A DNA stretch of 64,000 nt from Prochlorococcus marinus XMU1411 (GTDB lineage Bacteria; Cyanobacteriota; Cyanobacteriia; PCC-6307; Cyanobiaceae). Below the pieces are notes generated by a model. It did no database searches. It was given only the letters and a program-made list of their open reading frames with translations, and had not been told where the DNA came from. The position numbers and the translations under genes are program-made. Shown here piece by piece: positions 1 through 52,243 of this stretch; position 1 is the stretch's first letter, and every line of letters starts with the position of its first letter. The DNA lies in contig NZ_JAAORI010000004.1 of assembly GCF_017696075.1 (NCBI RefSeq), positions 186,001 to 250,000 on the forward strand, given 5' to 3'.

Positions 1-1
1 T

Positions 2-6832: not shown

Positions 6833-6877
6833 GTAATTTATAAAGTACTAAATTATTTTTACTATAAGGAACATATA

Positions 6878-8038: not shown

Positions 8039-8063
8039 AATTTATTTATGCAATGGTAAATAA

Positions 8064-9722
8064 TTAATCAATCGTGAGGTAACTAATATTCAAGTCAGGT
8101 ATCGAATTTAAACGATCAGTTAGCTTTTGAAATTCACTTTTTTTAACAACTCCCAAATAAACTAAACAAATTATTTGTTTATATTTTAATAAATCACTTA
8201 TGTTCGAGGTTATGAGAAAATTATTTTCCCCCAAAAGATCTTCCAAAATTTCATTTATGTAAGATATCTCAAAATCTTCTTTTGCCCCAAATTGGTAAAA
8301 TACAGTTTTACTTTTTGAGTCCAAATTCATAGATTTTATCAAAATCGAAATAATATCTTTCCATTCGGAAGTTTGATTACTCTGAAGATGATCAATTGTT
8401 TTATTTCGTATAATTGTGGAAAGCTCATATTTTGAACTAAGAATATTTCTTAATTTTTCAAAAATATAGGATATCAGTGAAGCGAATATCAAACTAAATA
8501 AAAATGTAGTTATAACCATTCTTTTTTTTAAGGGTGCCACTGCATAAGGTAAAATTGTTGGTTTTGTTATAATCTGAGCCTCATTTAAATCATTCGACTT
8601 CTCTAAAGATAATTGAATGTAGTTCTGTTCCATTGCATCAAGAGTTGTTTTACTTTTCAAAGCAATTCTTAGTAAATTTCCAAATTTATTTAATTTATCT
8701 TGTGAGCGATTTAATGATTCTACCTTTGCTGTTAATAAATTCTTCTCTGCCAATAAATAAGAAAATAATTTTGATCTAATCTCTTTCCTTAAGTTGGATC
8801 TTTGAGCAATTAAAGTTTGAATAGAGATATCTTCATCTTTAAATATCTTTCTTAAATTAGATAATTTAATTTCATTATCTAAGTAGGTTCTATATTCAGG
8901 GATTCTTTCTTCTTTATTATCCACTAAAGAGGTCTTAGCAAAAACTTCATCTGAATCAATAGGTATTTTTTTTAGTTGTTCTATAGTCAATTCAATTTCC
9001 TTCAATCTGTTGAAGGAATCTATTTGAGCTGCCATAAATTGATCTGCTCTCGTAGCAGTAAGATCATTTAGTACGGTTGGAACAAACATTGACTGCTGGT
9101 TAGCATATGCAAGCAATTCTGCATAATCCTTATTAGATTTGTCTTCATATTTTTTAATTTGCAGTTCAAGAAAATCCATGCTTTTTGCAATATCTCTTTT
9201 CCTTTTGTCTTTTCTGTAAATTTCATAAGATCTTGAGATATCTTCTAAAACTTTTTTTAGAAGTATTTTATCTTGATCTTTATAAACAACCTTAACTACA
9301 TTTGTTTCTTCAATTATTTCTATATCTAAAGATTTTGTCCATTTTTTAAATGTCAGAGATTTGTCATTTCTTTGTTTTTTTACATTTTGATAAATGTCCA
9401 TAAGTACGAAAGGACTCTTTAAAACGTTTATTTGTGTATTTAATCTACTGGCTGATCCTATATTAAAAATAGAAAAGTCTAAATTACCAAGTGCACCGCC
9501 TGCAGATCTCTGACCTTCCTCATCATAAACAATTTGAAATTCCCCCTCCCAAAGTTTTGGTGTATTAATTGCAACTATTGCAGATATAAAGCTACTAAGT
9601 AGTGCAAATGAAAGAATAAATATTTTATTTCTAATAATTTTTTCAATTATTGGCCGAATTTCTATATCATCATTTTTTACTGATTTATCAATAGAATTTA
9701 TGATTGATTTTTTTTCTGTCAC
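8064..9722 (-). CDS. Wzz/Wzc-type polysaccharide co-polymerase (chain-length determinant), kinase-like tail degenerate
   Basis: This 552-residue inner-membrane protein has the PCP layout: TM1 at about 34-52, a long periplasmic part rich in coiled-coil sequence (about 160-390), and TM2 at about 402-421. It sets polysaccharide chain length and couples polymerisation to the Wza channel. The roughly 130-residue cytoplasmic tail is the right place for a Wzc tyrosine autokinase. Its end (about 535-552) resembles the last strands of BY-kinases, but no Walker A (GxxxxGKT/S), no Walker B aspartates and no tyrosine cluster are visible. It is therefore likely kinase-dead or a PCP with a relic domain. 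It sits 74 bases downstream of lexA on the same strand. Confidence 0.8.
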   Translation of the reverse strand: MTEKKSIINSIDKSVKNDDIEIRPIIEKIIRNKIFILSFALLSSFISAIVAINTPKLWEGEFQIVYDEEGQRSAGGALGNLDFSIFNIGSASRLNTQINVLKSPFVLMDIYQNVKKQRNDKSLTFKKWTKSLDIEIIEETNVVKVVYKDQDKILLKKVLEDISRSYEIYRKDKRKRDIAKSMDFLELQIKKYEDKSNKDYAELLAYANQQSMFVPTVLNDLTATRADQFMAAQIDSFNRLKEIELTIEQLKKIPIDSDEVFAKTSLVDNKEERIPEYRTYLDNEIKLSNLRKIFKDEDISIQTLIAQRSNLRKEIRSKLFSYLLAEKNLLTAKVESLNRSQDKLNKFGNLLRIALKSKTTLDAMEQNYIQLSLEKSNDLNEAQIITKPTILPYAVAPLKKRMVITTFLFSLIFASLISYIFEKLRNILSSKYELSTIIRNKTIDHLQSNQTSEWKDIISILIKSMNLDSKSKTVFYQFGAKEDFEISYINEILEDLLGENNFLITSNISDLLKYKQIICLVYLGVVKKSEFQKLTDRLNSIPDLNISYLTID

Positions 9723-37564: not shown

Positions 37565-38165
37565 TTTTTTGACCCAGTAAAGGTATTAAAACTCTCCTAC
37601 ATTTTTTTGAAAAAGGCCAAATATTTAATGCGCGCTTCAGATTTCATGTAATATTTGTGAATTTATGTGTTTAAAACTATAAATAACTCTCTTAAATTGT
37701 TTCTTTCAAGATATTTGTCTCGTTTTTTTATCTCACATTAATTTTGATAATTTATCTTCAACAGGAGATACATTTGACCCTTCAAATTTTATAGACTAAA
37801 AAAATAATCAGTGTGTATTAAGCAAAAATATCAGTAATTTATATTGCCATGAAAAGTTTAAATTAATAGTTAACCTTCCAGCATAAATTCAAATAAATAG
37901 ATTGCGATTCGACTCAAGCCGTCAGAGAATCTGTTCAAAAGAGTGACTATGCTTCTTAAGATTATTAAATTATTATCTTAGCTCCTTTCAACAAAATAAT
38001 ATTAAATTACCTAGCAGCTTTTACAGGCAATTTATAGTGTTATTAAGATCAATACCAGCTTTAAACCTTAGTAATTCGCTACAGTATAATTTAAAATAAA
38101 TTGCTGTTTTAAAATTATATGTTTAATAAGATGGATTTGTCTCTTACTTTTAAATCCTGATAATT
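37565..38165. other. Island-edge intergenic region of about 600 bp
   Basis: The gap between the divergent sigma factor and glycan operon holds no ORF above about 15 codons and no tRNA that I can fold. A patch around 37902-37960 is less AT-rich than its flanks and could be a leader, an sRNA or a relic. A perfect TATAAT lies at 38085. No integrase or direct repeat was seen. Confidence 0.5.
38085..38090 (+). promoter_or_regulatory. Putative -10 element of the glycan operon
   Basis: A TATAAT lies 75 bases before the first gene of the plus-strand operon (38166). The -35 region is poor. The predicted leader would be about 70 nt. Confidence 0.35.
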
Positions 38166-39308
38166 ATGAATGATTTAAAATACCAAATTTGTAAGAAGAC
38201 TGTAATGGATACTTCAGATCCAGCAACTAAATTTGACTCTAACGGGATATCAAATCATTATTGGGATTTCCATAACATAGTTAAAGCTCATTGGTACAGG
38301 GGTAAAAAAGGTGAGAAACAATTAGAGAAGAAAATTGAAGAAATAAAAGAACGAGGCAAAGGCAAAGAATTTGATTCAATTTTAGGCCTGAGCGGTGGTC
38401 TTGATAGTTCCTATATGCTCCATACAGTAGTAAGCAAGTATAAATTAAGACCTTTAGTATTTCATGTCGATGGAGGTTGGAATACAGAAATAGCTGTTAA
38501 CAACATAAAATCTTTAGTAGAAAATCTCAAGTTAGATCTTTTTACTGAAGTGATTGACTGGAATGAAATGAAGAACTTCCAGCTTGCGATGTTCAAATCA
38601 GGTGTACCTCATTTAGATGTACCTCAAGATATGGCTTTTGTTGGTACCTTGTATAAATTTGCCGAGAAGTACAACGTCAAAACAATATTAAATGGAGGCA
38701 ATATTGCTACTGAATCTGTTCTAAGACCATTTAATCTAATCTATTATGGAGCTGATTTAACTCAAGCAAAAGATATAATTAAAAAATTTGGCAATTTAGA
38801 TATGAAAACTTACCCCTTCACTTCGGTTTTTTATCATAAAGTTTGGTTGAAATATATTAAAAATGTAAACGTATTTAAACCCTTAAATTACATAAATTAT
38901 TTAAAATCAGATGCTATTCGAGAATTAAAAAGTATTTACGGATGGAAACCATATTCTCAAAAACATTTTGAGTCAAGATTTACTAGATTCTATGAGGGGT
39001 ATTGGTTAACCAACAGATTTAATTATGACATGAGAAGAGTAGAATTATCTAGCATGATATTATCTGAACAAATACATCGTTCAGAGGCTATTGAAATACT
39101 GAAGAATCCTCCGTTAGAAAGTAAAGTAGTTGAGGATGAATTTAATTATGTTGCAACTAAACTTGATATTTCAGTAGAAGAATTAGAAAAATATTTTACT
39201 ATGCCAAAAAAATATTATTGGGATTACAAAAATAATAAAAAATTATTAAAACTAGGTGAAAATTTTTTAAAAGTTATTGGCGGAGCAAGAAGAGGAGGAT
39301 CATATTAA
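38166..39308 (+). CDS. N-acetyl sugar amidotransferase (WbpG/LfnA-like)
   Basis: This PP-loop ATP pyrophosphatase has the nucleotide motif LSGGLDSSYM at about residues 76-85. Family members convert an acetamido sugar to an acetamidino sugar, using ammonia supplied by the HisH/HisF-like pair encoded next. The N-terminus has the family zinc-site pattern (MDTSDP, FDSNG), but only Cys9 of the expected C9-x2-C12 and C29-x2-C32 remains: residues 12, 29 and 32 are Thr, Ser and Tyr. Length is 380. It opens a six-gene operon, and the next gene starts 3 bases after its stop. The sugar substrate is inferred from the downstream dehydratase, reductase and epimerase. Confidence 0.83.
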   Translation: MNDLKYQICKKTVMDTSDPATKFDSNGISNHYWDFHNIVKAHWYRGKKGEKQLEKKIEEIKERGKGKEFDSILGLSGGLDSSYMLHTVVSKYKLRPLVFHVDGGWNTEIAVNNIKSLVENLKLDLFTEVIDWNEMKNFQLAMFKSGVPHLDVPQDMAFVGTLYKFAEKYNVKTILNGGNIATESVLRPFNLIYYGADLTQAKDIIKKFGNLDMKTYPFTSVFYHKVWLKYIKNVNVFKPLNYINYLKSDAIRELKSIYGWKPYSQKHFESRFTRFYEGYWLTNRFNYDMRRVELSSMILSEQIHRSEAIEILKNPPLESKVVEDEFNYVATKLDISVEELEKYFTMPKKYYWDYKNNKKLLKLGENFLKVIGGARRGGSY

Positions 39309-39310
39309 GT

Positions 39311-39958
39311 ATGCTTACCATAGTTGATTATGGATTAGGCAATTTAAATGCTTTTGAGAATGTTTATAATCGACTGAAAATAAAATTTAAAATCGCTTCC
39401 AATAAGGAAGATTTACTGAATGCGAGCAAACTAATATTACCTGGAGTTGGTTCATTTGATTACGCTATTGATTTACTAAATACTTCTGGGATAATTAAAA
39501 CCTTAAATGAATTAGTCTTAGTTAAAAACATCCCTGTTCTAGGTGTTTGTGTAGGGATGCAAATTATGTCTAACTATAGTGAGGAAGGCAAGCGTAAGGG
39601 TTTAGGGTGGATAAATGCATCAGTAAAACATTTCCGGAGCAACCCAAATTGGCATCAAAATCAATCAGACAATTATGAAATATCTAATAGGCTGCCTTTA
39701 CCCCATATGGGCTGGAATAAAAATGAAATTATCAATAACTCCCCATTAATTAATGGTTTATCAAGAAATTCTTTCTACTTTCTTCATTCATATTATATGG
39801 ATGTCCCTAATAATAAGAACATAATTGCTTGTTCTGAGTATCCATTTAAATTTACTTCAGTAGTATCACACAAAAATATATATGGAGTACAATTTCACCC
39901 AGAGAAAAGTCATCATTCAGGAGAAAAACTATTAGAAAATTTTGCTAAATTAGTTTAA
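39311..39958 (+). CDS. hisH2: HisH-like glutamine amidotransferase subunit for sugar amidination
   Basis: This class I glutaminase has 215 residues. The nucleophile is in LGVCVGMQIM and the His-Glu pair in GVQFHPEKS, so glutamine hydrolysis should work. The N-terminal VDYGLGNLNAFENV is the HisH opening. Homology is to histidine-pathway HisH, but the location between a sugar amidotransferase and a divergent HisF-like partner argues for ammonia supply to sugar modification. The stop shares one base with the next start (TAATG). Confidence 0.85.
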   Translation: MLTIVDYGLGNLNAFENVYNRLKIKFKIASNKEDLLNASKLILPGVGSFDYAIDLLNTSGIIKTLNELVLVKNIPVLGVCVGMQIMSNYSEEGKRKGLGWINASVKHFRSNPNWHQNQSDNYEISNRLPLPHMGWNKNEIINNSPLINGLSRNSFYFLHSYYMDVPNNKNIIACSEYPFKFTSVVSHKNIYGVQFHPEKSHHSGEKLLENFAKLV

Positions 39959-40728
39959 TGCTTAAGTCTCGAATAATACCTGTCTTATTAATTCATCGTG
40001 GAGGATTATATAAATCTATCAACTTTAAGGATCATAAATATATAGGGGATCCACTAAATGCGGTAAAGATATTTAATGAAATGTACGTTGATGAATTAGT
40101 AATATTAGATATTGATGCTACTAAATTGGAGAAACCTCCAAATTACAAATTAATTCAGAATCTTGCAAAAGAATGCAGGATGCCAATTTGTTACGGCGGA
40201 GGGATAAATAATACTCAACAAGTAGAAAGAATCATCCAATTAGGGGTAGAAAAGGTTGCGATTAGTAATGCTTTAATTAATAACCCTAGACTAATTTGTG
40301 AAGCTAAAGATAAAGTCGGGAGTCAAAGCCTGGTAGCAGTTCTTGATATCAAAAGACATGGTTTATTAAATAAAAAATATTACATATACAAAAACAATGG
40401 TTCAATAAAGACAAACTTAGATATTTTAGAATTCTCGAAAAAACTAGAATCCTATGGTATTGGTGAAATAATATTAAATTCTATCGATAATGATGGTAAA
40501 CAAATAGGATACGATTTCGAAATGAGCGACTCAATCATACCGCATTTAAATATACCAATTACCCTACTTGGTGGGGCAGGTAACTTCTCTCACCTTCATC
40601 AAGCTAACAAAAAATACGGTATTATTGGTCTTGGTGGTGGAAGTATTTTTGTGTTTAAAGGAAAATATAGAGCAGTTTTAATTCAATATCCTAATGAGGA
40701 AGAAAAAGATTTAATATTAACTAATTAA
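39958..40728 (+). CDS. hisF2: HisF-like ammonia-channelling subunit for sugar amidination
   Basis: This is a TIM-barrel protein of 256 residues. Compared with HisF (RIIPCLDV), the start reads RIIPVLLI, so the catalytic Asp11 of true imidazole glycerol-phosphate synthase is replaced by Leu. The second Asp (VAVLDIKR) is kept. The phosphate-binding glycine segments YGGGIN and LGGAGN are present. The lost Asp and the gene neighbours suggest it no longer makes IGP/AICAR and instead passes ammonia from the HisH-like subunit. It overlaps the previous gene by one base. Confidence 0.85.
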   Translation: MLKSRIIPVLLIHRGGLYKSINFKDHKYIGDPLNAVKIFNEMYVDELVILDIDATKLEKPPNYKLIQNLAKECRMPICYGGGINNTQQVERIIQLGVEKVAISNALINNPRLICEAKDKVGSQSLVAVLDIKRHGLLNKKYYIYKNNGSIKTNLDILEFSKKLESYGIGEIILNSIDNDGKQIGYDFEMSDSIIPHLNIPITLLGGAGNFSHLHQANKKYGIIGLGGGSIFVFKGKYRAVLIQYPNEEEKDLILTN

Positions 40729-40771
40729 ATAAATCATCTTAAATTTGATCTACCGAAAATATAAATAAAAA

Positions 40772-41656
40772 ATGTCAATATCTAATAGTATAAAAAAAGA
40801 GGGGAAAACTATATTAGTACTTGGTGCGACAGGAATGTTAGGGAATGTAGTTTTTAGATATTTATCAAGTAAAGAATCATATAAAGTTTATGGTTCAGTT
40901 AGATCGGCCACATCAAAACTATTATTTAAAAAAATTCTTAGAAAAAATTTAATTTCTGATATTCATGTTAATTCTGATAAGAAAATTGCTGATTTATTTT
41001 CATTAGTTAATCCTGATATAGTTATCAATTGTATTGGTGTTATAAAACAATTAGATCACAGTTCTAATGTTCTTGAAGTAGTTCCTATAAACTCATTGTT
41101 ACCCCATAGATTAGCTATCTTATGCAAAAAGAAGTCTATAAGATTAATTCACTTTAGTACTGACTGTGTATTTTCTGGAGAAAAAGGTAATTACATAGAA
41201 TCTGATAATCCTGATCCTAAAGATTTATATGGAAGGAGTAAACTAATTGGAGAAATAGATTATCCTAATTGCCTAACTTTAAGAACATCTATAATTGGGC
41301 CTGAGTTAAACGCTTCAAAAAGTCTTCTTTGTTGGTTTCTTAAAGAAAGTGGAACAATCAAAGGATATGTCAAAGCAATATTTTCTGGTTTACCCACTGT
41401 AGAAATAGCTAGAATCCTTTGTGAATATATAATTGAAAATAACTTATCAGGGATATATCACTTGTCAGGAAATTCAATAGATAAATATAGCCTGCTTAAT
41501 CTCATTGCAAAAACATATAATCACAAAGTCAAGATCGTACCAGATAATAGAATAGTTATTGATCGTTCATTAAATTGTGAGAAATTTAGAAAAATTACTG
41601 GATATGAACCTAAGACATGGGATGATCTTATAGAGTCTATGAGAGAATTTAATTAA
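40772..41656 (+). CDS. SDR-type NDP-sugar reductase (RmlD-like), L-hexosamine pathway
   Basis: The Rossmann protein of 294 residues has the NAD(P) motif GATGMLGNVV at about 19-28. The active-site YxxxK is seen as YGRSKLIGE, and a preceding STDCVFSG carries the Ser/Thr. It resembles dTDP-4-dehydrorhamnose reductase and the reductases WbjC/CapF/FnlB or WbvR. It lacks the C-terminal cupin of CapF. It would reduce the 4-keto-6-deoxy intermediate made by the next gene's product. It starts 43 bases after the HisF-like gene. Confidence 0.8.
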   Translation: MSISNSIKKEGKTILVLGATGMLGNVVFRYLSSKESYKVYGSVRSATSKLLFKKILRKNLISDIHVNSDKKIADLFSLVNPDIVINCIGVIKQLDHSSNVLEVVPINSLLPHRLAILCKKKSIRLIHFSTDCVFSGEKGNYIESDNPDPKDLYGRSKLIGEIDYPNCLTLRTSIIGPELNASKSLLCWFLKESGTIKGYVKAIFSGLPTVEIARILCEYIIENNLSGIYHLSGNSIDKYSLLNLIAKTYNHKVKIVPDNRIVIDRSLNCEKFRKITGYEPKTWDDLIESMREFN

Positions 41657-41659
41657 AAA

Positions 41660-42676
41660 TTGGAAATATTTACTGAAAAAAAATTTTTAATAACTGGTGG
41701 AACAGGTTCATTTGGATCTATAGTAACCAAAGAATTATTAAAATATCCAGTAAAAGAAATTGTAGTTTTCAGTAGAGATGAATTGAAGCAAGAACGTTTA
41801 CGCCTAGCTTTAAAAAATGACAAAATTAAATATTTTATTGGCGATATAAGAGATTACTCATCTATTGACTTAGCAATGAAAAATATAGATTATGTTTTTC
41901 ATGCTGCTGCTTTAAAACAGGTGCCTTCTTGCGAGTTTTTCCCAATGGAAGCAGTAAAAACAAACATAATCGGCACTGAAAATGTTCTAAACGCAGCCTT
42001 ACAAAATAATGTATCAAAAGTTGTTAATTTAAGCACAGATAAAGCAGTTTACCCTATTAATGCGATGGGATTAACAAAAGGAATTATGGAAAAAATAATG
42101 ATGGCTAAAGCAAGAAGCTCTTCTGGAAATTTGCCATTATTTTGTGCAACTCGTTATGGGAATATAATGGCCTCACGAGGTTCAGTAATTCCTCTTTTTG
42201 TGGAATGTATCAAGGCCAAGAAGCCTATCACAATTACTGATCCATCTATGACCAGATTTCTAATGTCATTAGATGATTCTGTTGATTTAGTCTTTGAAGC
42301 TTTCAAAAACGCAAAACAAGGAGATATATATATTCAAAAATCTCCAGCTTCAACTATTGGAGATTTAGCCAAGGCCTTACTAGAGATTTTTGACGTTGAT
42401 TTACCAATCAAGATTATTGGAACTAGACATGGTGAAAAATTATATGAATCATTGCTTTCTAGAGAAGAAATGGCTAAATCAATTGACTTAGGAAAATATT
42501 ACAGAATACCGCTTGATAATAGAGACCTAAACTACGAAAAATATTTTATAAAAGGTCAAGAATCTTTTAGTGTTTCAGAAGATTATACCTCTCATAACAC
42601 TGATAGGCTAAGCATTGAAGAAATTAAAAAAATTTTACTTAATCTAAGTTTCATTCAACAAGAAATTAAATGCTAA
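41660..42676 (+). CDS. UDP-GlcNAc 4,6-dehydratase / 5-epimerase (WbjB/CapE/FnlA-like)
   Basis: This short FlaA1-type SDR has 338 residues. The NAD(P) motif is ITGGTGSFGSIV near residues 11-22. The catalytic segment is STDKAVYPINAMGLTKG, where Met replaces the usual Tyr of YxxxK (MGLTK), as in the PseB/CapE/WbjB group. The family removes water from UDP-GlcNAc and inverts C5 to enter L-series 2,6-dideoxyhexosamines. The TTG start at 41660 is 3 bases after the previous stop. The 3' end overlaps the epimerase by 7 bases. Confidence 0.86.
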   Translation: MEIFTEKKFLITGGTGSFGSIVTKELLKYPVKEIVVFSRDELKQERLRLALKNDKIKYFIGDIRDYSSIDLAMKNIDYVFHAAALKQVPSCEFFPMEAVKTNIIGTENVLNAALQNNVSKVVNLSTDKAVYPINAMGLTKGIMEKIMMAKARSSSGNLPLFCATRYGNIMASRGSVIPLFVECIKAKKPITITDPSMTRFLMSLDDSVDLVFEAFKNAKQGDIYIQKSPASTIGDLAKALLEIFDVDLPIKIIGTRHGEKLYESLLSREEMAKSIDLGKYYRIPLDNRDLNYEKYFIKGQESFSVSEDYTSHNTDRLSIEEIKKILLNLSFIQQEIKC

Positions 42677-43818
42677 AAGTTATAACAGTTGTAGGTACTA
42701 GACCAGAAATTATCAGATTATCTAGAATAATCCCAATTTTGGATAAATATTGCGATCACACTTTAGTGCATACAGGTCAGAATTATGATTACGAATTAAA
42801 TCAGATTTTTTTTGATGAATTGCAAATTAGAAAGCCAGATACATTTTTAAATATAAGTAATAAATCTTTAGGGCAAGCAATAGGAGATTTAATAATAAAA
42901 TCCGAACAACTATTTAAAGATGTAAAACCTAACGCATTATTAGTCCTTGGAGATACAAATAGTTCATTAGTAACAATAATTTCGAAAAGGATGAAGATCC
43001 CTATTTACCATATGGAAGCAGGTAATAGATGTTTTGACTCTAATGTCCCTGAAGAAATAAATAGAAAAATAGTAGATCACTTATCAGATTTTAACTTGGT
43101 TTACACTGAACATGCCCGAAGAAATCTATTAAGGGAAGGGGTTCATCCGAGGTTTATATACTTAACTGGATCTCCAATGAGAGAGATTATAGATTATAAC
43201 CTTCAAAGAATTGTATCCTCAGATATTTTAAATCAACTTGAGCTAAAGGTAGGAGAATACTTTCTTGTGAGCCTACATAGAGAAGAGAATGTTGATAATC
43301 AGAAAACCTTGCAAAAACTTATTATGTTACTTGAAGAAATAGAAAAAATATTTAAATTAAAAATTATAGTTTCAACCCATCCACGAACAAATAAAAGAAT
43401 GGATTCTTTAGGTTTTAATAATAAAAATAAAAATATTCATTTTCTTAAGCCCTTCGGTTACTTTGACTATAGTAATTTGCAATTAAATTCTCAATGCGTT
43501 CTATCAGATAGTGGAACAGTTAGTGAAGAGTCAGCTATCTTAGGTTTTCCTGCAATAACTCTCAGAAATTCTATGGAAAGACCAGAGGCTTTGGATTCGG
43601 GAACTATATCTCTAACTTCATATGATGTTGAAGAGGTTGTTCAAAATATAAAAATTGCTATTCAACATCATTCAGAAAATAAAAAAAGAATAACTACTGT
43701 ACCCCATGAGTATCAAATAAAAAATACTTCCCAAATTGTACTAAAACTTATCCTGGGAACTGCAAAAATAAGCAGCAAATGGTTAAATATTGATGATTTC
43801 AATAGATATGACTTCTAA
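42670..43818 (+). CDS. UDP-N-acetylhexosamine 2-epimerase (WbjD/CapG/FnlC-like)
   Basis: This GT-B-fold 2-epimerase of the WecB family has 382 residues. It opens with KVITVVGTRPEIIRLSRII. The VLGDTNSSLV and HMEAGNRCFD segments are present, as is the UDP-binding SDSGTVSEESAILGFP. In the L-FucNAc and L-QuiNAc pathways this enzyme performs the last step, inverting C2. It overlaps the dehydratase and ends the plus-strand operon; the convergent WbpM-like gene ends 40 bases away. Confidence 0.87.
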   Translation: MLKVITVVGTRPEIIRLSRIIPILDKYCDHTLVHTGQNYDYELNQIFFDELQIRKPDTFLNISNKSLGQAIGDLIIKSEQLFKDVKPNALLVLGDTNSSLVTIISKRMKIPIYHMEAGNRCFDSNVPEEINRKIVDHLSDFNLVYTEHARRNLLREGVHPRFIYLTGSPMREIIDYNLQRIVSSDILNQLELKVGEYFLVSLHREENVDNQKTLQKLIMLLEEIEKIFKLKIIVSTHPRTNKRMDSLGFNNKNKNIHFLKPFGYFDYSNLQLNSQCVLSDSGTVSEESAILGFPAITLRNSMERPEALDSGTISLTSYDVEEVVQNIKIAIQHHSENKKRITTVPHEYQIKNTSQIVLKLILGTAKISSKWLNIDDFNRYDF

Positions 43819-43858
43819 GTTAATTTTTAGTTTTCAAATATAATACTTACAAGGTGCA

Positions 43859-45760
43859 TTAATTATCGATGATATTTACATTTTTCCATTCTTTAACTAA
43901 GTCGGACAGTACTATCAGAGAATTTTCTAAATCCTGTTTCTTTATTGAGTCTTCTAATATATCTAACTTACTAAATAAGAATTCATTTTCTAAATAATAG
44001 TCATTAGCAATAAAAATTAAAGGATTTTCAGTCGAAATAGAATCTCCATTGATTAGCAATTCTTCATACAATTTCTCACCTTTTCTAAGACCAGTGCATA
44101 CTATTTCAATATCACCATTTGGATTATTATTATCCTTTATTTTTAATCCAGCCAATTCAATCATTAATTTAGCTAAATCTTTTATCTTGATTGGATCTCC
44201 CATATCTAATAAAAATATTTCACCTCCATCTTTTGTTAGGGTTGAAGCCTGAAGGACAAGCTCAACAGCCTCAGAGATAGACATGAAATAACGAATTATA
44301 TCTGGATGAGTTAAGGTAATTGGCCCACCTTCAGAGATTTGTTTTTTAAATAAAGGCATTACAGATCCTGACGATCCTAAAACATTACCAAATCTAACCA
44401 TTGAAAATTTTGTATATTTTTTTTCGTCGGATCCTAAATTTTTTAATTTATTTGCGTATCCCTGCACAATAAGTTCAGATAATCTTTTAGATGCACCCAT
44501 TACATTTGTAGGTCTTACTGCTTTATCAGTTGAAACAAAAATAAATTTTCGTACTCTAAAATTTAAACATGCTTCACATAATAATTTTGTAGAAAAGACA
44601 TTGTTAAAAATTCCTTGAAGAGGATTGATCTCTACAAGAGGTACATGTTTATATGCAGCAGCATGAAAAACAATTTTTATTTTATTAAGTAAAAATAATT
44701 TATCCAAAAGAGATTTATCAGTTGCACAACCAAGAATAGAAGAGATTTCAACACTAGTATTAAATTTATTTTTTAACTCTTGATCTATTTCATAAAGACT
44801 TGATTCATTTCTTTCCAAAAGTAATAATTTTTTTGGGGATAATCTTAAAACTTGTCTACAAAGCTCTGAACCAATTGAACCGCCTGCTCCGGTAATTAAA
44901 ACTACAGAATCACGAATATCAGTACCGATAATTTCTTTACTTATTGGGATTAAATCTCTACCTAAAACATCTTCAATTGCAATATTCTTTAATCTGCTAA
45001 TACTATATTTACCGGTTGTTAAATCCTTTATTGAGGGTACAGATAAAACTCTTAAACCTTTATTTTTTAGAAAGTCAATTTTTTCTCTTAAAACAGATTT
45101 ACTTAAAGAGGGAATAGCTATTAATATTTGATCAATATCTACCTTAAAGTTATCTATTTTTGATGGAGGTAAAATATTTTTTCCATTAATCTGTCTTTTC
45201 CAAAGGTGATCTGCATCGTCTAAGAAAAAACAAATTTTATAATTTGGATCCTCACTTAAATAATTTGACAATTTAACACCTGCTCTACCAGCACCGTAGA
45301 TTGCTACATTAGTAACTTTTTTATTTTTTTCGCTATTTATTAACAAATCGCTTATTAAAAACCTACAAGAAAAAGTTAATATACTAATTAAAATGACCAT
45401 CAAAAGCCATACATTAATAGATGGATTTGGGAATCTAAAAATATAATTTAAAGTACAAGTTATTAATATAATAAAAATGTTCCTTTTTACATATGTATAA
45501 GGAGTTCTTCTATTTAAATATCTACTTATACTTTTATATTGTCCTGAGAACAGATAAACAAAAATACCTATAACTGGTAATGTATAAATAATTGCCTTAT
45601 ATTCGATTAACAAATATGTAAAGGATTTAGAATCGCTAATATAAAAACTAAGGCTGAAAATAACTGAGAATACTAATAATATAAAATCTATAAAAACAAT
45701 CAATATCCTTCTTTCTAAAAAACCGATCGAATAAATTCTTTCTAAAGGGTTAATATACAA
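43859..45760 (-). CDS. Membrane-bound nucleotide-sugar 4,6-dehydratase (WbpM/PglF/CapD-like)
   Basis: The 633-residue protein has four N-terminal TM helices (about 19-40, 53-72, 91-108, 115-135). A first Rossmann fold follows (VAIYGAGRAG). The catalytic SDR domain carries TGAGGSIGSE and the STDKAVRPTNVMGASK active-site run. Met replaces Tyr in the YxxxK triad, as in WbpM. The family makes UDP-4-keto-6-deoxy-GlcNAc for QuiNAc, FucNAc or bacillosamine-type sugars. It is convergent with the plus-strand operon. Confidence 0.9.
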   Translation of the reverse strand: MYINPLERIYSIGFLERRILIVFIDFILLVFSVIFSLSFYISDSKSFTYLLIEYKAIIYTLPVIGIFVYLFSGQYKSISRYLNRRTPYTYVKRNIFIILITCTLNYIFRFPNPSINVWLLMVILISILTFSCRFLISDLLINSEKNKKVTNVAIYGAGRAGVKLSNYLSEDPNYKICFFLDDADHLWKRQINGKNILPPSKIDNFKVDIDQILIAIPSLSKSVLREKIDFLKNKGLRVLSVPSIKDLTTGKYSISRLKNIAIEDVLGRDLIPISKEIIGTDIRDSVVLITGAGGSIGSELCRQVLRLSPKKLLLLERNESSLYEIDQELKNKFNTSVEISSILGCATDKSLLDKLFLLNKIKIVFHAAAYKHVPLVEINPLQGIFNNVFSTKLLCEACLNFRVRKFIFVSTDKAVRPTNVMGASKRLSELIVQGYANKLKNLGSDEKKYTKFSMVRFGNVLGSSGSVMPLFKKQISEGGPITLTHPDIIRYFMSISEAVELVLQASTLTKDGGEIFLLDMGDPIKIKDLAKLMIELAGLKIKDNNNPNGDIEIVCTGLRKGEKLYEELLINGDSISTENPLIFIANDYYLENEFLFSKLDILEDSIKKQDLENSLIVLSDLVKEWKNVNIIDN

Positions 45761-45832
45761 AATTCATCGTATTTTTTCGTTATTTTAATATAGATGACGC
45801 GTTAACATGGGATTTTAAACCTTAAAAAATAT

Positions 45833-46504
45833 TCATATTATCATCCTAACAATCTTAAATGCCTCAGCATATTCACATCCATTTTGGCTTCCTCTAAAAC
45901 GTGCAAGTGATTTACAAGCATCAGTAGATCTTGAGTCAACATTAGTTAATTGTGATTTATAAGCAGATAAGGCCTGAATTTTTTTTTCAATATGATCACT
46001 TATGTCTATAAAAACTTCAGGGCAAAATTGAGGTTCGATTCCGGGGACATTCCAATGAGTTTCCGATAAGGTTTCATAGCTAAAAACTAACTTAGGAAAA
46101 TATTCTCCAACTGGTCTACAAGCCACAACAGAAGCATCAAATATAACCCTATGATCAATATGCCTATCAGGATAAGGAATAAAAACAACATCTGATTTAC
46201 TATCAGATATAAAGCTTGCAATCAACTTATTTAGTTCTGAGACTGGTTTTTGATGAACAAACGTAGCAGGTATAGATCCAAATTGATATTCATCTACTCC
46301 CAATAATTTAAATGCTATTTTGGCTTCTTCAACTGTTCTTTCGTAAGATTCCTTAGGATAAAGAGGTGGCAAATGTCCTGATACAACCAATATTCTTACT
46401 TTACATCCGTAATTCGAAAATCTTGCAATCGTCCCACCTAAAGCTATAGTTTCGTCATCTGGGTGTGGCGCTATTACAGAAATTATTGAATTAGAATTTA
46501 TCAC
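45833..46504 (-). CDS. PIG-L/LmbE family zinc deacetylase
   Basis: This is a 223-residue deacetylase-like protein. The zinc and catalytic motif HPDDE is in APHPDDETIALGG near the N-terminus, and the third ligand region is PDRHIDHRV. The family removes acetyl groups from N-acetylglucosaminyl lipids or sugars. It starts with GTG 46504 and overlaps the methyltransferase by 4 bases, implying coupled translation. The exact substrate, probably a GlcNAc-type intermediate of the glycan, is not known. Confidence 0.87.
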   Translation of the reverse strand: MINSNSIISVIAPHPDDETIALGGTIARFSNYGCKVRILVVSGHLPPLYPKESYERTVEEAKIAFKLLGVDEYQFGSIPATFVHQKPVSELNKLIASFISDSKSDVVFIPYPDRHIDHRVIFDASVVACRPVGEYFPKLVFSYETLSETHWNVPGIEPQFCPEVFIDISDHIEKKIQALSAYKSQLTNVDSRSTDACKSLARFRGSQNGCEYAEAFKIVRMII

Positions 46505-47790
46505 AATACTTTCTCCTTGTATTCAGGCAAAGGGACAATACATTTTAATTTCCAATCAACTATTTCTTTTAGCTTCTTAATAATATCATCAGCAAAATTC
46601 CAAGCAAATATTATTATAATGTCTGGCTTTCTAGATTTCAGTTCATCTAAAGAAAAAATAGGAATAGAAGCTCTTGGAGTATATCTTCCTACTTTCAGTA
46701 TATTATCTTCAATTAAGTAAGAAACTTCATTTTTAGTTAGCTTTGATAAGTGAAGTAATAAAGTGACTTTTGTGGGAGCTCCATATCCAGCAATTTCACA
46801 ACCTTCTTTTGAATATAATAAAACTTTTTGATTTAATAATTTCATGGTTTTATCTACATTTCTTCTCCAAGAATTAAGAAAATCACTGTGATAAAGGATT
46901 GATTTATTTTCTAAAGATATAAATTCTAAAGCTTCTTTGGTAATAGAGCCTTTTCCTGTTTTTCTTGTCTCAATACGGAGACTACCCCCTTGCATTTTAT
47001 TTGTAGTGATATTTACAATTTCAAAACCTAACTTAGTTAAGTAATTAACTAATGGGCTGGCATGATGATAATCTAGGTGTTCATGATAAATAGTATCAAA
47101 AAGCTTATTTTCAAGAACATTTCTAAAATATCCTATCTCAAATACAAAACTGGAAGAATCCTTTAATAACTTATAAATGTTCTTAAATACACTATCAATC
47201 TCATCGATATGAGCTAATACATTATGAGATGTAATAAAATCCACCTGTCCATAATTCTTCAGTATTTCATTAGTAACCTCATCAGTAAAGAATGAATTTA
47301 TAGTATTAATATTATTTTTATTAGCTATCTCAGCCGCATAGCTAGCGGGATCAACCCCCAAAACATTACAGCCTAACTTTTTAAAATATTGCAACCCTAA
47401 ACCATCATTAGATCCAACATCTAAGACAAGTGAGTTTTTGCCCAAAGAAAACCTTTTTACAGCCCATTCAGCATATTGCTTAATATGTTCAATAAAAGAG
47501 ATTCCTACACTACTTAAGTAAGTGTAGTTTGTTGCGTATAACTTTTTTGGATTAACTGATGTACTTAATTGAAAATGATTACATCGCGAACACCTTTTAA
47601 TACTTAATGGATAAGCATCGGCACTAGCCGCATCTTCACTATTTTCGAGAAGATTATTGCCTAGAGGTATTAATCCAAAGTCAACAAAATTATCCAAATT
47701 AGTTGAATTGCATAATCTACAATTCTTTATTTCAACAAACTTATCTGCTTCGAGCATACTTTTCAAGAAATTCCTGTATGTTCGAATCAT
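46501..47790 (-). CDS. SAM-dependent sugar C-methyltransferase (Methyltransf_13/14 type)
   Basis: The N-terminal zinc-binding region shows CRLCNST and CSRC cysteines. The class I SAM core has LVLDVGSNDGLGLQYF. The C-terminal Methyltransf_14 domain includes IAGYGAPTKVTLLLH and the final IIIFAWNFAD. The family performs C3-methylation of NDP-4-keto-6-deoxyhexoses (TylCIII-like). Length is 429 from 47790; a Met at 47757 may be the real start because it reduces the overlap with the upstream cupin gene to 17 bases. Confidence 0.85.
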   Translation of the reverse strand: MIRTYRNFLKSMLEADKFVEIKNCRLCNSTNLDNFVDFGLIPLGNNLLENSEDAASADAYPLSIKRCSRCNHFQLSTSVNPKKLYATNYTYLSSVGISFIEHIKQYAEWAVKRFSLGKNSLVLDVGSNDGLGLQYFKKLGCNVLGVDPASYAAEIANKNNINTINSFFTDEVTNEILKNYGQVDFITSHNVLAHIDEIDSVFKNIYKLLKDSSSFVFEIGYFRNVLENKLFDTIYHEHLDYHHASPLVNYLTKLGFEIVNITTNKMQGGSLRIETRKTGKGSITKEALEFISLENKSILYHSDFLNSWRRNVDKTMKLLNQKVLLYSKEGCEIAGYGAPTKVTLLLHLSKLTKNEVSYLIEDNILKVGRYTPRASIPIFSLDELKSRKPDIIIIFAWNFADDIIKKLKEIVDWKLKCIVPLPEYKEKVL

Positions 47791-48178
47791 TTAAAAAACT
47801 TACTCGTGTAGTATCTGCTTCATAAGTTTCCTGATCTCTAGGGAAGCCACTACTTACAACAAGAGATGTAAACTCTGGGAAATAACATCCATGAATTTCA
47901 TTTGCTGGGCTCAAAATTGTATCTCCTTTTAAAACTTTAAAATATCTAACTTCTTTCGAACCTATAGGTTTAAAAAAATAATCAATAGAACCCTCTAATA
48001 CATACATAAAATGAAAATCAACTTTATGAAAATGATTTGATCTTATCGATCCTTTGACACTATCTATAATAGAAACATTCTGTACTGGATAATCAACTAT
48101 TGAAGTTATATTTCCTCTTGCATCACTATCTCGTTCTACACTTTTGAATAACTTTGATTCATTAGGAAGTTCAAGCAC
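47741..48178 (-). CDS. Cupin protein, sugar epimerase/isomerase-like
   Basis: This single-domain cupin has 145 residues. The metal-like first motif is SNHFHKVDFHFMYVLEG and the second GDTILSPANEIHG. The family includes RmlC-like epimerases, FdtA/WxcM-like ketoisomerases and the cupin half of CapF, and sequence alone does not separate them. The GTG start at 48178 and overlap with the methyltransferase gene suggest a shared NDP-sugar pathway in which it supplies or epimerises a 4-keto sugar. Confidence 0.72.
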   Translation of the reverse strand: MLELPNESKLFKSVERDSDARGNITSIVDYPVQNVSIIDSVKGSIRSNHFHKVDFHFMYVLEGSIDYFFKPIGSKEVRYFKVLKGDTILSPANEIHGCYFPEFTSLVVSSGFPRDQETYEADTTRVSFLNDSNIQEFLEKYARSR

Positions 48179-48252
48179 AGTTAATGATTTTTTTTTTAAT
48201 TTTACAGAACTAATCTTTCAAAAAATATAAATGTGTAATCATTTTAATATAG

Positions 48253-49227
48253 TTAATTTGAAGGTAAGTTAACTTGTTTTGATAGTTTTTGCAGAGTTTC
48301 TGTAACTTGTATCATGTTATGGAATCTAGTATTTTGTGTCTTACACCATTGATTTCTTGAGATTAAAAAAATTTTTTTAAAACAATTCTCTTCTATTACA
48401 TTTCTAATTTTAATATTATTATTCATATTAATAGTTAATTCCCTTTTACCCTTTCTTCCATAATAAAAAGGACTTAGTTGAATAAAATTATCATTTTTAT
48501 AAATTATTTTAATGTAATTAGAATAATTGTTACCCAAACCAAACTCACAACTAAAAGAAGTATGATTATCATTTAATTTTTTAGAATAAAAAAAATATTT
48601 ATTTAGATTTTTATCGGTCTCAATTTCAACTTCTCTGAGATCAAAACCTGATTCTGAAAGAAAGTTCAGTGGGTAACAGCCTATATCAGCCAACAATGAG
48701 GAAGATAGAGATTTTTCATTTCTAAAAGTCCCTAAAGGAATACTTGGAATAATAAATTGTGATCTTATTGATTTAATTTTATTAATATCAAATCGTAAAT
48801 TATTAATGAAAATATTCACTATTTTATTTTGCAAATACATCATCATCTCAATTAACAATACTTTTTTTGATTTAGCAATCTGAATTAGGTCTTGTAATTC
48901 AGAAGAATCTATAAAACATGGCTTTTCTACCATTACATCAAATCCAGCTAAGAGAGCAGCCTTAGCTTGAGAATAATGATATTTTGGGGGCGAAGATAAA
49001 ATATATAAACAATTAGACTTATTGTGGGGAAAAGATTCACTAATAGAATAAAAATTATTTTTTATGTTATTTGCATTATTGATTTGCGATGATACCGTTG
49101 AAATTTGGTTTAAATCATAAAGTTCAACAAGAATTGGGAGCAATTTAGTTTTTGCATGATTTCCTAAACCTACCAAGCATACCTTTGGCCATGGCATATT
49201 AACCTTCATGCTTTTTGCCATCTCCAA
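48253..49227 (-). CDS. Gfo/Idh/MocA family NAD(P)-dependent oxidoreductase
   Basis: The Rossmann N-domain contains VCLVGLGNHAKTKLL. The EKPC motif characteristic of the family (VEKPCF) follows at about residue 110. The substrate domain completes 324 residues. In glycan clusters such enzymes oxidise or reduce NDP-sugars, for example at C3. The first ATG (49227) overlaps the upstream WecA-type gene by 29 bases; an ATG at 49197 would sit just past that gene's stop and could be the true start. Confidence 0.8.
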   Translation of the reverse strand: MEMAKSMKVNMPWPKVCLVGLGNHAKTKLLPILVELYDLNQISTVSSQINNANNIKNNFYSISESFPHNKSNCLYILSSPPKYHYSQAKAALLAGFDVMVEKPCFIDSSELQDLIQIAKSKKVLLIEMMMYLQNKIVNIFINNLRFDINKIKSIRSQFIIPSIPLGTFRNEKSLSSSLLADIGCYPLNFLSESGFDLREVEIETDKNLNKYFFYSKKLNDNHTSFSCEFGLGNNYSNYIKIIYKNDNFIQLSPFYYGRKGKRELTINMNNNIKIRNVIEENCFKKIFLISRNQWCKTQNTRFHNMIQVTETLQKLSKQVNLPSN

Positions 49228-50230
49228 AAAAGTATTCTTTCTCTACAAAGAAAAACCTTAAAAGCAAGTAATTTATGGGAGTGATAAAAATAATAGAAAT
49301 ATACATAGCTACGTAATCATTCATAAAATTTCTTAGTAGAGACCTACTTAATAAAACAACAAATAAATTAACTGGGACAGGTAAGAGGTAACTATAGTTT
49401 TGATTACAAATTTCCATTCTTTGATATAAATGAAGGTAATTTCTAATTAATAAATTATGCGAACATTTTATTCTTAAACAAATTACATAAAAAACGTCAA
49501 ATACTGGTAAAGCTATTAACGCAAACAAAGAAAAAAATATTTCAGGAGAAATAACATAAGAGAACATTAAAAGCGTCAAGAATAAAAATGCAAATAAAAA
49601 ACTTCCCGAATCTCCGATATATATACAATTAGGTCTGCAATTTAAAATGGCAAACCCAATTGATATTCCTAATAAACAAGAGCCGATTATATCGAAAGCT
49701 CTTAAATTTTGTTCATTAAATATAATTAGAATTAAGCCCATTAAAAATATTAAAGAAGACATATTTAAATTAGAACCATCGTAAAAATTACTAACATTAA
49801 CTAAAACCAATGAGGAGATCATTAAAATACAAAAAACAATTAGATAAAAAGATGGGAATTTATTTAAGAAGTCCAAACCAATAGGCATATTTATAAGTAG
49901 AGTTATCGTTATTGAAGTTATAACCATTCGAATAAAAGGACTCAATTCAAATAAATCGTCCAAATAATATATTAAGGTCATTAATACAATTACTATTAGG
50001 CTTGGAAGAAAAAGGGAAATATAATTATCAGTTTTATAAGTATAAATAGATATAAAAAATATAATACTTGCAATTGATCCAAAACCTTTTGGTACTCCAT
50101 TTTTCCTAGTAAATTTATGTATTCGTGTATAAGCTAAAGAACATAAGAAGGTAAATAATATATTTAACGGAATAAGTTTAAAAGCCAAGTCCATTAATTT
50201 ATCTTCTACGTTGAATAAAAAGTTGATCAT
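49199..50230 (-). CDS. WecA/MraY-type undecaprenyl-phosphate sugar-1-phosphate transferase
   Basis: The integral membrane enzyme of 343 residues has about ten hydrophobic helices. The catalytic Asp pair is in YYLDDLFEL, with NFYDGSN in the next cytoplasmic loop and IYIGDSGSFLFAFL after that, as in the GT4-like MraY/WecA family. It transfers HexNAc-1-phosphate to undecaprenyl phosphate and so probably initiates the glycan repeat. A Met at 50194 would avoid the 32-base overlap with the upstream gene and is a plausible start. Confidence 0.85.
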   Translation of the reverse strand: MINFLFNVEDKLMDLAFKLIPLNILFTFLCSLAYTRIHKFTRKNGVPKGFGSIASIIFFISIYTYKTDNYISLFLPSLIVIVLMTLIYYLDDLFELSPFIRMVITSITITLLINMPIGLDFLNKFPSFYLIVFCILMISSLVLVNVSNFYDGSNLNMSSLIFLMGLILIIFNEQNLRAFDIIGSCLLGISIGFAILNCRPNCIYIGDSGSFLFAFLFLTLLMFSYVISPEIFFSLFALIALPVFDVFYVICLRIKCSHNLLIRNYLHLYQRMEICNQNYSYLLPVPVNLFVVLLSRSLLRNFMNDYVAMYISIIFITPINYLLLRFFFVEKEYFFGDGKKHEG

Positions 50231-50834
50231 TAGCCAAATTTTTTGTAACTACGCTAGCAGCAGCTATTTTAGAGTTTTTACCTATTTTTATTGGACTGAT
50301 TATCATAGTGCCAGAACCTAACAATACGTTTTCTTCGACAATAGAATTTCGATGAGTATTTCCGTCGTAATTACAAAATACAACTCCAGCTCCAATAATA
50401 ACGTTATCTTTTACATGCACATCACCAAGAAAAGCTTGATGAGAAATTTTTACATTATTACCAATTTTACTTCTTGCCATTTCAACGTGGCTACCAATAA
50501 TACAATCATTCGCAACTATAGAATTATCCCGTAAGAAACAAAAAGGTCCAATAATATTTTTCTTACCAAGAGAACAGTTTCTTATAATAGAGTAGGGTCT
50601 AATATTAGTTTCCTTATTAACAAATACATTTTCAAGAACAGATCCACATTCAATAATCACTCCGTTAAAAATACTTGATTCACCCTGAAAGTATGTATTT
50701 GGAGATAATGTAACCTCACCTAATAATCTAACAACGGCATTATTATGAAGGTAAATTGAGTCTAATTGAAATTTATTTCGAATAGAAATTGAATCATAAA
50801 AAATTTCTTCTCTATCAAAATAAATTGTTTTCAT
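50199..50834 (-). CDS. Left-handed beta-helix (hexapeptide) acyl/nucleotidyl-transferase-like protein
   Basis: I start at the ATG at 50834, giving 211 residues and removing the overlap with the upstream GT. Most of the protein is hexapeptide repeat, for example LHNNAVVRLLGEVTLSPNTYF, NVKISHQAFLGDVHVKDNVI and GAGVVFCNYDG. The C-terminal IKIGKNSKIAAASVVTKN resembles the GlmU acetyltransferase end. It may N-acetylate an amino sugar; the acceptor is unknown. It lies in the minus-strand glycan operon just upstream of the WecA-type gene. Confidence 0.75.
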   Translation of the reverse strand: MKTIYFDREEIFYDSISIRNKFQLDSIYLHNNAVVRLLGEVTLSPNTYFQGESSIFNGVIIECGSVLENVFVNKETNIRPYSIIRNCSLGKKNIIGPFCFLRDNSIVANDCIIGSHVEMARSKIGNNVKISHQAFLGDVHVKDNVIIGAGVVFCNYDGNTHRNSIVEENVLLGSGTMIISPIKIGKNSKIAAASVVTKNLANDQLFIQRRR

Positions 50835-50872
50835 AAAAAATAATATGTGATCACATAATATCCAAAGGTTAT

Positions 50873-52084
50873 TTATTTGCAACGATAGTTCAATATGACA
50901 TCTGACCACTTTTGTAATATTATTTCTGGAGAGAAGTTCTCATTGTAAGCATTTATTGCAGCCTTCTTATAACTTTTTTTCCAAGATTGATCACTATATA
51001 ATTTTTCTATTAAGTTAGCTAGCTTCTTGTGCTCTTTAAGAGAAACGACAAATCCACATTTTTTACTATTAATAATTTTAGCTAAATCACTTTCTTTTTC
51101 TATAAGCGCAATAATAGGAACTCCCTGCTCCAAGTATGTCATTGTTTTACTAGGGTATGCATATTTATACAAATTTTCTGAAAGAGGTACTAAACCAATA
51201 TCAGCTTCCCTAATTAGTTCTTTAGCAGATTGATGATCTATCTGATTTATAAATGTGACGTTAGTATTCAATTTTTTGCTTAATTTAAGAAGTTTACTTT
51301 TTAATATCCCGTCACCAAGCAGGATAAGTTCCACATCTGAACTTTTAATCAAAGAAAAAGCTCTTAAAACATTTTCAAGTCCCTGAAATCTTCCAATATT
51401 TCCAGCATAAATAATCTTAAAAGTACTTGGGTTCAATTTTTTTGAAAGATTATTTTCAGAATTAAAATCTTTAATGGTAAGACTATTAATGATAGTGAAA
51501 TTTAACTTTTTCTTACTACTAAACCTTTTAATTATTGATTGCTTCATAGATTCTGAATGCACAATCACAGGAGAGGCCTGGGAACATGTCCACTTATCTA
51601 ATAAAAACATGGTTTTCACAACAATTGGATTGGATAAAATACCAGTTAAAATTCCAATCTCTGGATTTATATCCATGCAATAGTATATGAATCTTGAACC
51701 TATTATTTTTGATGCTATTGCGGAAAAGAATGCTGTTACAACAGGAGGAGTAGTCGTACAGATGACAATATCATATTTTTTAAATATAGATTTTAAAGTT
51801 ACAACTGCTCCCATAAAAAAAGCATTAAATATTCTTGGCAAACCAGAATAACTCTCTTTTATTAGAGTTAATCTATGAATGTTTAAATTAGTATTTCCGT
51901 CAAAAAGTTTAAGTTTTTCTCTTGAAATTTTAAATTGATATCGCTGAGGATAACTAGTTACAATATCAACCTCATCAATTCTACTTGATAAGAAACGAGC
52001 TAAATTATATAAAATTTCTGAGCATGAAGATTTATCAGGGGAGAAATACCGATGGACAATTAATATTTTTTTTACTTTTCCCAT
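50873..52084 (-). CDS. Glycosyltransferase family 4 (WcaI/WbuB-like)
   Basis: The 403-residue GT-B enzyme opens with ILIVHRYFSPDKSS. Its acceptor half is membrane-associated (hydrophobic near 90-120). The donor half has IIYAGNIGRFQGLENVLRAF, DIGLVPLSEN and the YPSKTMTYLEQGVPIIAL segment. WbuB-type relatives transfer L-FucNAc, which would fit the L-hexosamine genes nearby, but donor specificity is not proven. It is first in the minus-strand glycan operon and divergent from mnmA. Confidence 0.85.
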   Translation of the reverse strand: MGKVKKILIVHRYFSPDKSSCSEILYNLARFLSSRIDEVDIVTSYPQRYQFKISREKLKLFDGNTNLNIHRLTLIKESYSGLPRIFNAFFMGAVVTLKSIFKKYDIVICTTTPPVVTAFFSAIASKIIGSRFIYYCMDINPEIGILTGILSNPIVVKTMFLLDKWTCSQASPVIVHSESMKQSIIKRFSSKKKLNFTIINSLTIKDFNSENNLSKKLNPSTFKIIYAGNIGRFQGLENVLRAFSLIKSSDVELILLGDGILKSKLLKLSKKLNTNVTFINQIDHQSAKELIREADIGLVPLSENLYKYAYPSKTMTYLEQGVPIIALIEKESDLAKIINSKKCGFVVSLKEHKKLANLIEKLYSDQSWKKSYKKAAINAYNENFSPEIILQKWSDVILNYRCK

Positions 52085-52243
52085 TTAACTTTAAATATTC
52101 TGTAGTGATTAATAAAAATGAAAGATGATTCTTTAACTTTATAAAAATATCTCTTATTTATTTAATATTCTAATTGTTGGACATCCAAAATCATTCATAA
52201 TTAGTACAAAGCAATTGAAGTACTGTTCAAAAATTAAACTTCC

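Follow-up and report, generated by a model that had tools for sequence, protein, structure and literature searches.

Prochlorococcus marinus XMU1411, whose genome measures 1.67 Mb in six contigs, carries a run of six plus-strand genes at 38166-43818 of a 64,000-nucleotide stretch of contig NZ_JAAORI010000004.1 (positions 186,001 to 250,000 of the forward strand; the whole stretch is called the window). These genes form one co-oriented cassette, which probably makes nucleotide- or lipid-linked 2-acetamidino-2,6-dideoxy-L-glucose (L-QuiNAm); in the explanation that we favour, the cassette is borne on an island that destroyed the gene nnr, and its N-acetyl sugar amidotransferase (NASAT) is of a kind that lacks the zinc site of the family. 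An earlier reading, made from the letters of the DNA alone (the sequence-only reading), had described a six-gene plus-strand operon in a picocyanobacterium, with a complete route to an acetamidino-2,6-dideoxy-L-hexose. Coordinates, spacing and family matches agree with this operon, NCBIfam profile searches bear out the family names given to all six proteins, and the gene set supports the predicted route; as for the organism, its Ffh is 97% identical to the Ffh of uncultured Prochlorococcus AG-422-I06. The genes of the cassette are the following:

38166-39308, plus strand: NASAT/WbuX-like N-acetyl sugar amidotransferase, 380 amino acids (TIGR03573, motif, predicted model)
39311-39958, plus strand: HisH-like glutaminase (TIGR01855; C80, H196 and E198 kept)
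39958-40728, plus strand: HisF2/AglZ-type partner, putative ammonia channel (NF038364; Asp11 changed to Leu, Asp130 kept)
40772-41656, plus strand: RmlD-like short-chain dehydrogenase/reductase of the WbvR/QnlA/Mg535 type, predicted C3-epimerase/C4-reductase (C132, Y153xxxK157)
41660-42676, plus strand: FnlA/WbvB/CapE-like UDP-GlcNAc 4,6-dehydratase/5-epimerase (TIGR04130, CapE 3vvb, tree)
42670-43818, plus strand: non-hydrolysing UDP-HexNAc 2-epimerase, FnlC/WbvD-like (TIGR00236)

The six open reading frames (ORFs) are intact, all frames being open, and tightly packed, with intergenic distances of 2, -1, 43, 3 and -7 bases. Four proteins exceed the NCBIfam cut-offs of their families: NASAT (257.9 bits, cut-off 203.2), HisH (205.7, cut-off 105.4), HisF2 (334.9 with the AglZ/HisF2 profile, cut-off 310) and the 2-epimerase (261.5 with the WecB-type profile, cut-off 210.15). 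The reductase reaches only 81.7 bits with TIGR01214, below the cut-off of 224.05, and the FnlA-like protein matches CapE (3vvb) at E 1.9e-133. A residue check, which covered NASAT, HisH, HisF2 and the reductase, found the key residues kept, save the NASAT zinc cysteines and HisF Asp11.

The arrangement was compared with that of 80 related loci in named genomes, chosen through peptides of the window NASAT. The cassette occurs in two forms: form A has the order NASAT-HisH-HisF-FnlA-WbjC-FnlC, and form B, to which the window belongs, has instead an RmlD-like reductase placed ahead of FnlA. The same six gene kinds in the same order are present in three of the 80 loci, all from Pseudomonadota (L100, where a glycosyltransferase sits between HisF and the reductase, L104 and L126), and the WbjC form in 15; thus, the cassette arrangement is not due to chance. 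NASATs devoid of the zinc site are found in all four full form-B cassettes, but since three of these are close relatives in the tree, this association is not pressed.

In the proposed pathway, the FnlA-like enzyme would dehydrate UDP-GlcNAc and invert C5, after which the RmlD-like enzyme would invert C3, perhaps via Cys132, and reduce C4, leading to UDP-L-RhaNAc; the 2-epimerase would then convert UDP-L-RhaNAc to UDP-L-QuiNAc. For the last step, HisH would release ammonia from glutamine and HisF2, in which the cyclase acid is lost and the barrel kept, would conduct it, so that the ATP-using NASAT could replace the acetamido oxygen with NH, with the formation of a cationic amidine. We infer these chemical steps, as well as the identity of the sugar and its surface placement and role. 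The cassette would have arrived on a polysaccharide island, bringing with it a WecA-like initiator and a WbuB/WcaI-like transferase.

The product is probably L-QuiNAm and not 2-acetamidino-2,6-dideoxy-L-galactose (L-FucNAm), because the reductase is RmlD-like, of the WbvR/QnlA type, and not of the WbjC/FnlB type. Its identity is 48% with the reductase of Escherichia coli O163 and 44% with the E. coli O3 one, two loci where an FnlA-like gene is paired with an RmlD-like reductase; a 2-epimerase is present in O163 and none in the O3 stretch examined, and the O3 antigen contains L-RhaNAc. In Vibrio cholerae O37, WbvB, WbvR and WbvD form the UDP-L-QuiNAc pathway. Of the 16 rows in the reductase alignment, 15 have a cysteine at window residue 132 and all have YxxxK. 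This residue may correspond to the cysteine described for Mg535 in a Megavirus review, which reports the C3-epimerising cysteine of GDP-fucose synthase as conserved there, credits the Mg534/Mg535 pair with the formation of UDP-L-RhaNAc, and assigns to Mg536 the 2-epimerisation leading to L-QuiNAc (PMC9614988). Similarly, the FnlA/QnlA/QnlB set of Plesiomonas O33, where QnlA is the reductase and QnlB the 2-epimerase, is read as an L-QuiNAc set (PMC6467956).

The sequence-only reading had pointed to L-FucNAm, formed by an LfnA-type enzyme, which now appears less likely than L-QuiNAm, the reductase being RmlD-like and no WbjC having been found in the genome. An L-FucNAm product like that of E. 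coli O145 would require the RmlD-like enzyme to give the WbjC outcome, L-PneNAc, which the 2-epimerase would turn into L-FucNAc. We regard this as rather unlikely: the identities of 44-48% and the scores of the reductase point to RmlD and not to WbjC, although its stereochemistry is not certain from sequence; the remaining cassette genes match the O145 order, and NASATs of the zinc-less group stand with WbjC in four of ten loci (L103, L105, L106 and L178), but both reductase types occur together in none of the 80 loci (bit score over 150). Neither mark of the FnlABC/WbjBCD pathway was found in the cassette, which has no detected WbjC/FnlB-type reductase and whose FnlA scores below the equivalog level. 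The best match to the WbjC/FnlB-type profile NF047837 in the whole genome is the FnlA-like gene itself, with 27.9 bits against a cut-off of 500, in a search that had no positive control, since none of the 14 control genomes exceeded the cut-off.

The FnlA tree also speaks against the L-FucNAm alternative. The window protein falls within a supported set (98/95) of 22 rows, 18 of them scored as carrying an RmlD-like reductase and 4 to which no reductase was assigned; the set includes 0 of the 17 WbjC-type rows. These 22 rows represent 16 distinct loci, six being second copies of the same locus; L191 and L089, which are repeats, were left out of the tree. Two of the four unassigned rows derive from the G706 locus, where the reductase is present and is cut by the contig end.

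Several findings weigh against L-QuiNAm as the product, among which is the missing control of the NF047837 search. The FnlA proteins of E. coli O163 and O3, both with RmlD-like reductases, lie outside the supported set, therefore the FnlA tree is not a clean marker, and L168, one of its 18 rows, has a remote reductase (32%) devoid of the cysteine. Moreover, the FnlA-like protein, with 479.4 bits for TIGR04130, remains below the equivalog cut-off of 730 and is named FnlA-like on this account, and the stereochemistry predicted for the RmlD-like reductase rests on homology. No description of L-QuiNAm was found in the literature searched, where carbohydrate journals are thinly covered; a match for L-glucose concerned a different sugar, and papers with QuiNAm seem, from their titles, to be unrelated.

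The second peculiarity of the cassette is its NASAT, whose missing zinc site, like the replacement of nnr, had escaped the sequence-only reading. The protein has the PP-loop SGGLDSS at residue 76, in agreement with the SGGXDS mark, and the positions of the zinc site are C9, T12, S29 and Y32, so that one of four cysteines is left. The zinc-binding tetracysteine motif CXXCXn[GN]XCXXC is given as characteristic of NASATs in a study on the family (PMC10607449). Because this mark is absent, we file the window NASAT as a divergent branch that presumably works like a NASAT, and not as a typical member. In a survey of 107 rows, 7 were dropped, their first motif letter not being Cys, and taken as AsnB-like; the four cysteines are present in 86 of the remaining 100 and altered in 14. 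Ten of these 14 form one group, with a Shimodaira-Hasegawa-like approximate likelihood ratio (SH-aLRT) support of 99, which persists (SH-aLRT 96) in a tree of 83 rows with 50% identity or more to the window, built on an alignment trimmed of the positions 1-45 of the window protein. Its members come from Prochlorococcus (two), Gammaproteobacteria including Sedimenticola (three), SAR116, Betaproteobacteria, Cytophagales, Opitutaceae and Nitrosotalea, and thus span Prochlorococcus, Proteobacteria, Bacteroidota, Verrucomicrobiota and an archaeal bin. C9 is invariant in the group and position 29 is still Cys in six of the ten.

Four NASATs outside the main group have lost one to three zinc cysteines (L070:8939-10105, L122:7977-9122, L107:7977-9122 and L109:7974-9122), which suggests further separate losses of the site. 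Altered zinc sites are present in 12 of the 80 related loci, a share that is inflated, as one of the selecting peptides overlaps the zinc region. Of the 40 NASAT-type ORFs in cyanobacterial neighbourhoods, all but L070 retain the tetracysteine motif (39); eight further ORFs with a PP-loop far downstream were taken as AsnB. One member of the zinc-less group, from Prochlorococcus AG-422-I06 (L101), is 61% identical to the window NASAT and is accompanied by HisH and HisF; the other strand carries FnlC- and FnlA-like genes at the end of the contig, which may have truncated the locus before a reductase.

The predicted model of the window NASAT has a predicted local distance difference test (pLDDT) score of 92.4, and its N-terminal segment is modelled with high confidence. 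The best structural match is 8WEX (Foldseek E 1.3e-14; Z 25.9, root-mean-square deviation 3.1 over 314 residues), the next PDB entry having a Z of 12.4; a profile search of the PDB also retrieves 8WEX, at E 1.2e-7, while a single-sequence search gave no real match. The fold is thus predicted to hold although the zinc site is missing. The sequence-only reading would have been refuted by an amidotransferase falling among non-sugar PP-loop enzymes; the window protein groups instead with sugar NASATs, and a non-sugar PP-loop enzyme was rejected given the TIGR03573 score over the cut-off and the 8WEX fold match.

The loss of three of the four zinc cysteines counts on the same side as the points raised above against L-QuiNAm, as it may indicate loss of activity or a changed reaction; so does the presence of an FnlA-like gene by 16 of 86 four-cysteine rows, which means that this neighbour is not peculiar to the zinc-less branch. 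If the NASAT were inactive or differently reacting, the island would make plain L-QuiNAc. As to frequency, TIGR03573 exceeds its cut-off in 39 of 300 family genomes, and the window-type reductase is found in 6 of 400 family genomes (E at most 1e-20) and in 7 of 386 genomes across the phylum (E at most 1e-25), the window genome being included in each count. Three other genomes of the same genus, G655, G706 and G714, have the RmlD-like reductase, which would fit plain L-QuiNAc as the product; in the stretches of G706 (6 kb) and G714 (19 kb) an FnlA-like gene adjoins it, an FnlC-like gene lies within the stretch, and NASAT was not detected by BLAST, and in that of G655 (4.5 kb) the reductase is alone. 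We nevertheless consider plain L-QuiNAc distinctly unlikely. An alignment of 47 NASATs, from 46 of the 80 loci and the window, has the PP-loop and 76 invariant columns common to all, the other proteins being 54-61% identical to that of the window; the N-terminal segment is confidently modelled; and a ten-member clade from several phyla, keeping a FnlA-like gene, HisH and HisF in all ten loci, is hard to explain if inactive. In the L-QuiNAm explanation, the zinc-less branch is probably still active.

The partners of NASAT are also conserved. The catalytic triad C80/H196/E198 of HisH is kept in all 81 aligned rows, and HisF has Leu at site 11 in 79 of 80 rows, Met in one, and Asp130 in all 80. 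Given the roles of the triad and of Asp11 and Asp130, this pattern fits an ammonia conduit without cyclase work. The cassette was rejected as a set of housekeeping histidine genes: a different contig has two strong HisA/HisF-family genes, and one of these shows the CLDV motif (with Asp11) that marks true HisF and is absent from HisF2.

Downstream of the cassette, a second operon on the minus strand completes the island:

43859-45760, minus strand: PglF/WbpM-like 4,6-dehydratase (PF02719)
45833-46504, minus strand: PIG-L deacetylase (PF02585)
46501-47790, minus strand: sugar C-methyltransferase (PF08484, PF13489, PF08421)
47741-48178, minus strand: small cupin-like protein (PF14667 and PF00190, both below cut-off)
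48253-49227, minus strand: Gfo/Idh/MocA oxidoreductase (PF01408)
49199-50230, minus strand: WecA-like polyprenyl-phosphate sugar-phosphate transferase (PF00953)
50199-50909, minus strand: hexapeptide acyltransferase (PF00132)
50873-52084, minus strand: WcaI/WbuB-like glycosyltransferase (PRK10307, 100.6 bits, below the cut-off of 276)

The presence in the same island of an operon with its own 4,6-dehydratase is a further point against L-QuiNAm, as NASAT might act on the sugar of this operon and not on an L-hexosamine; WbpG, according to the NASAT study, amidates en route to D-ManNAc3NAmA (PMC10607449). This possibility seems improbable, since NASAT, HisH and HisF2 are co-linear with FnlA, reductase and epimerase on one strand, and the FnlA-like gene is present in all ten loci of the zinc-less clade. 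Returning to L-QuiNAm, its candidate transferase may be the WcaI/WbuB-like glycosyltransferase, because it is 26% identical, over 166-168 amino acids, to the glycosyltransferase adjoining wecB in E. coli O145 and O163. Plesiomonas shigelloides O51 provides a precedent, as an acetamidino L-sugar on D-QuiNAc is reported there (PMC3210612). A second glycan region occupies positions 1-9722 of the window; it comprises an SGNH/acyltransferase-like protein, an AsnB-like amidotransferase, a Wza-like export protein, a PglK/MsbA-like ABC transporter (below cut-offs), and a protein that by appearance is a possible chain-length regulator, without a family match.

The two operons constitute an island, which replaces most of nnr at the site:

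38009-52171: island of about 14.2 kb, 14 ORFs in two convergent runs, within nnr (GC content, homology boundaries)
37709-38030, minus strand: decayed 3' remnant of nnr, pieces of residues 424-462 and 509-533 (tblastn, alignment)
52172-52234, minus strand: 5' remnant of nnr, residues 1-21 (tblastn E 6e-5, blastn boundary)

The window loses its homology to relatives at about 38,008 on the left side (range 38,001-38,026, from seven relatives) and regains it from 52,172; the GC content of the island is 28.7%, compared to 33.7% and about 32.4% in the 10-kb flanks. In the 3' remnant, tblastn detects residues 509-533 at E 2e-4 and residues 424-462 only at E 0.077; the left remnant is 64-67% identical to four relatives, against 88% between two relatives in the same part. 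Among 80 other genomes sampled from the same genus, the sigma-factor and mnmA genes share a contig in 61, and in all 61 the interval measures 1749-1759 bp, against 14,679 bp here, and contains PF01256 (Carb_kinase). In the relative L200 the gene in the interval is a 533-amino-acid ORF; on the basis of the PF01256 domain, we take it to be nnr, the NAD(P)HX epimerase/dehydratase. PF01256 was not found in the window genome, which is given as 100% complete and where six contigs leave room for a copy in a gap; it is present in 14 of 14 control genomes and in 69 of 81 same-genus genomes, and among the 24 that are at least 90% complete the window genome is the sole exception (23/24).

No long repeat frames the island, since the repeats detected were imperfect or short, and an integrase was not observed in any of its 14 ORFs of at least 100 amino acids. 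Scans for promoter-like sites (46, with 39.4 expected) and terminators (0, with 2.1 expected) were uninformative, and Rfam at gathering scores detected tRNA alone in the window.

A broader proposal, more tentative than the biosynthetic one, is that a zinc-independent branch of sugar amidotransferases makes a cationic surface L-QuiNAm in Prochlorococcus, gained with an island that cost the cell its NAD(P)HX repair gene. If true, metabolite repair would have been directly given up in exchange for a new surface. From the cassette, a specific charged sugar is to be expected on one of the most abundant cells of the ocean, where surface glycans may matter for phage attachment; the sequence-only reading had suggested that a positively charged surface sugar could affect phage or grazer recognition. 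The locus also offers a clean before/after comparison, with a glycan island of about 14 kb in one genome and an unbroken nnr interval in its relatives. Furthermore, the cassette would be a testable case of a dispensable zinc site, which PMC10607449 presents as a mark of the NASAT family. As to phages, a Campylobacter phage protein is described as binding acetamidino-modified pseudaminic acid (PMC4690887). The window NASAT had no match in an annotated phage collection. NASAT-like proteins 29-37% identical to it are encoded by IMG/VR viral contigs (L210-L289, the best 80 of 179 confirmed stretches); the tetracysteine motif is kept in 78 of the 80, and HisH/HisF were detected beside none of the 80 genes in flanks of up to 3 kb, so that these stand-alone viral homologues look unexplained.

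Among known systems, the replacement flexible genomic islands (PMC4033161) are likewise surface-glycan clusters that differ between close genomes; here, unlike in those islands, relatives carry no alternative surface cluster at the site, as all 61 that were measured lack an island there and have the short interval with PF01256. LpNASAT (PDB 8WEX) has the PP-loop and overall fold of the window NASAT, with 17% identity in the aligned part, but it binds zinc by four cysteines, according to PMC10607449, whereas the window protein keeps one. With the UDP-L-QuiNAc pathways (WbvB/R/D, FnlA/QnlA/QnlB and Mg534/535/536), as far as their available accounts go, the cassette shares the FnlA-like dehydratase, the RmlD-like reductase with the conserved cysteine and the 2-epimerase; the amidotransferase-HisH-HisF set of the window, in contrast, is in none of these described systems or the examined E. 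coli O163 stretch. The E. coli O145 cassette (wbuX-hisH-hisF2-fnlA-wbjC-fnlC), whose WbuX is credited with a role in making L-FucNAm by PMC10607449, has five of the six gene kinds in nearly the same order; however, the window has an RmlD-like reductase ahead of FnlA, where O145 has wbjC after fnlA, and the two NASATs, 44% identical, have one and four zinc cysteines, respectively.

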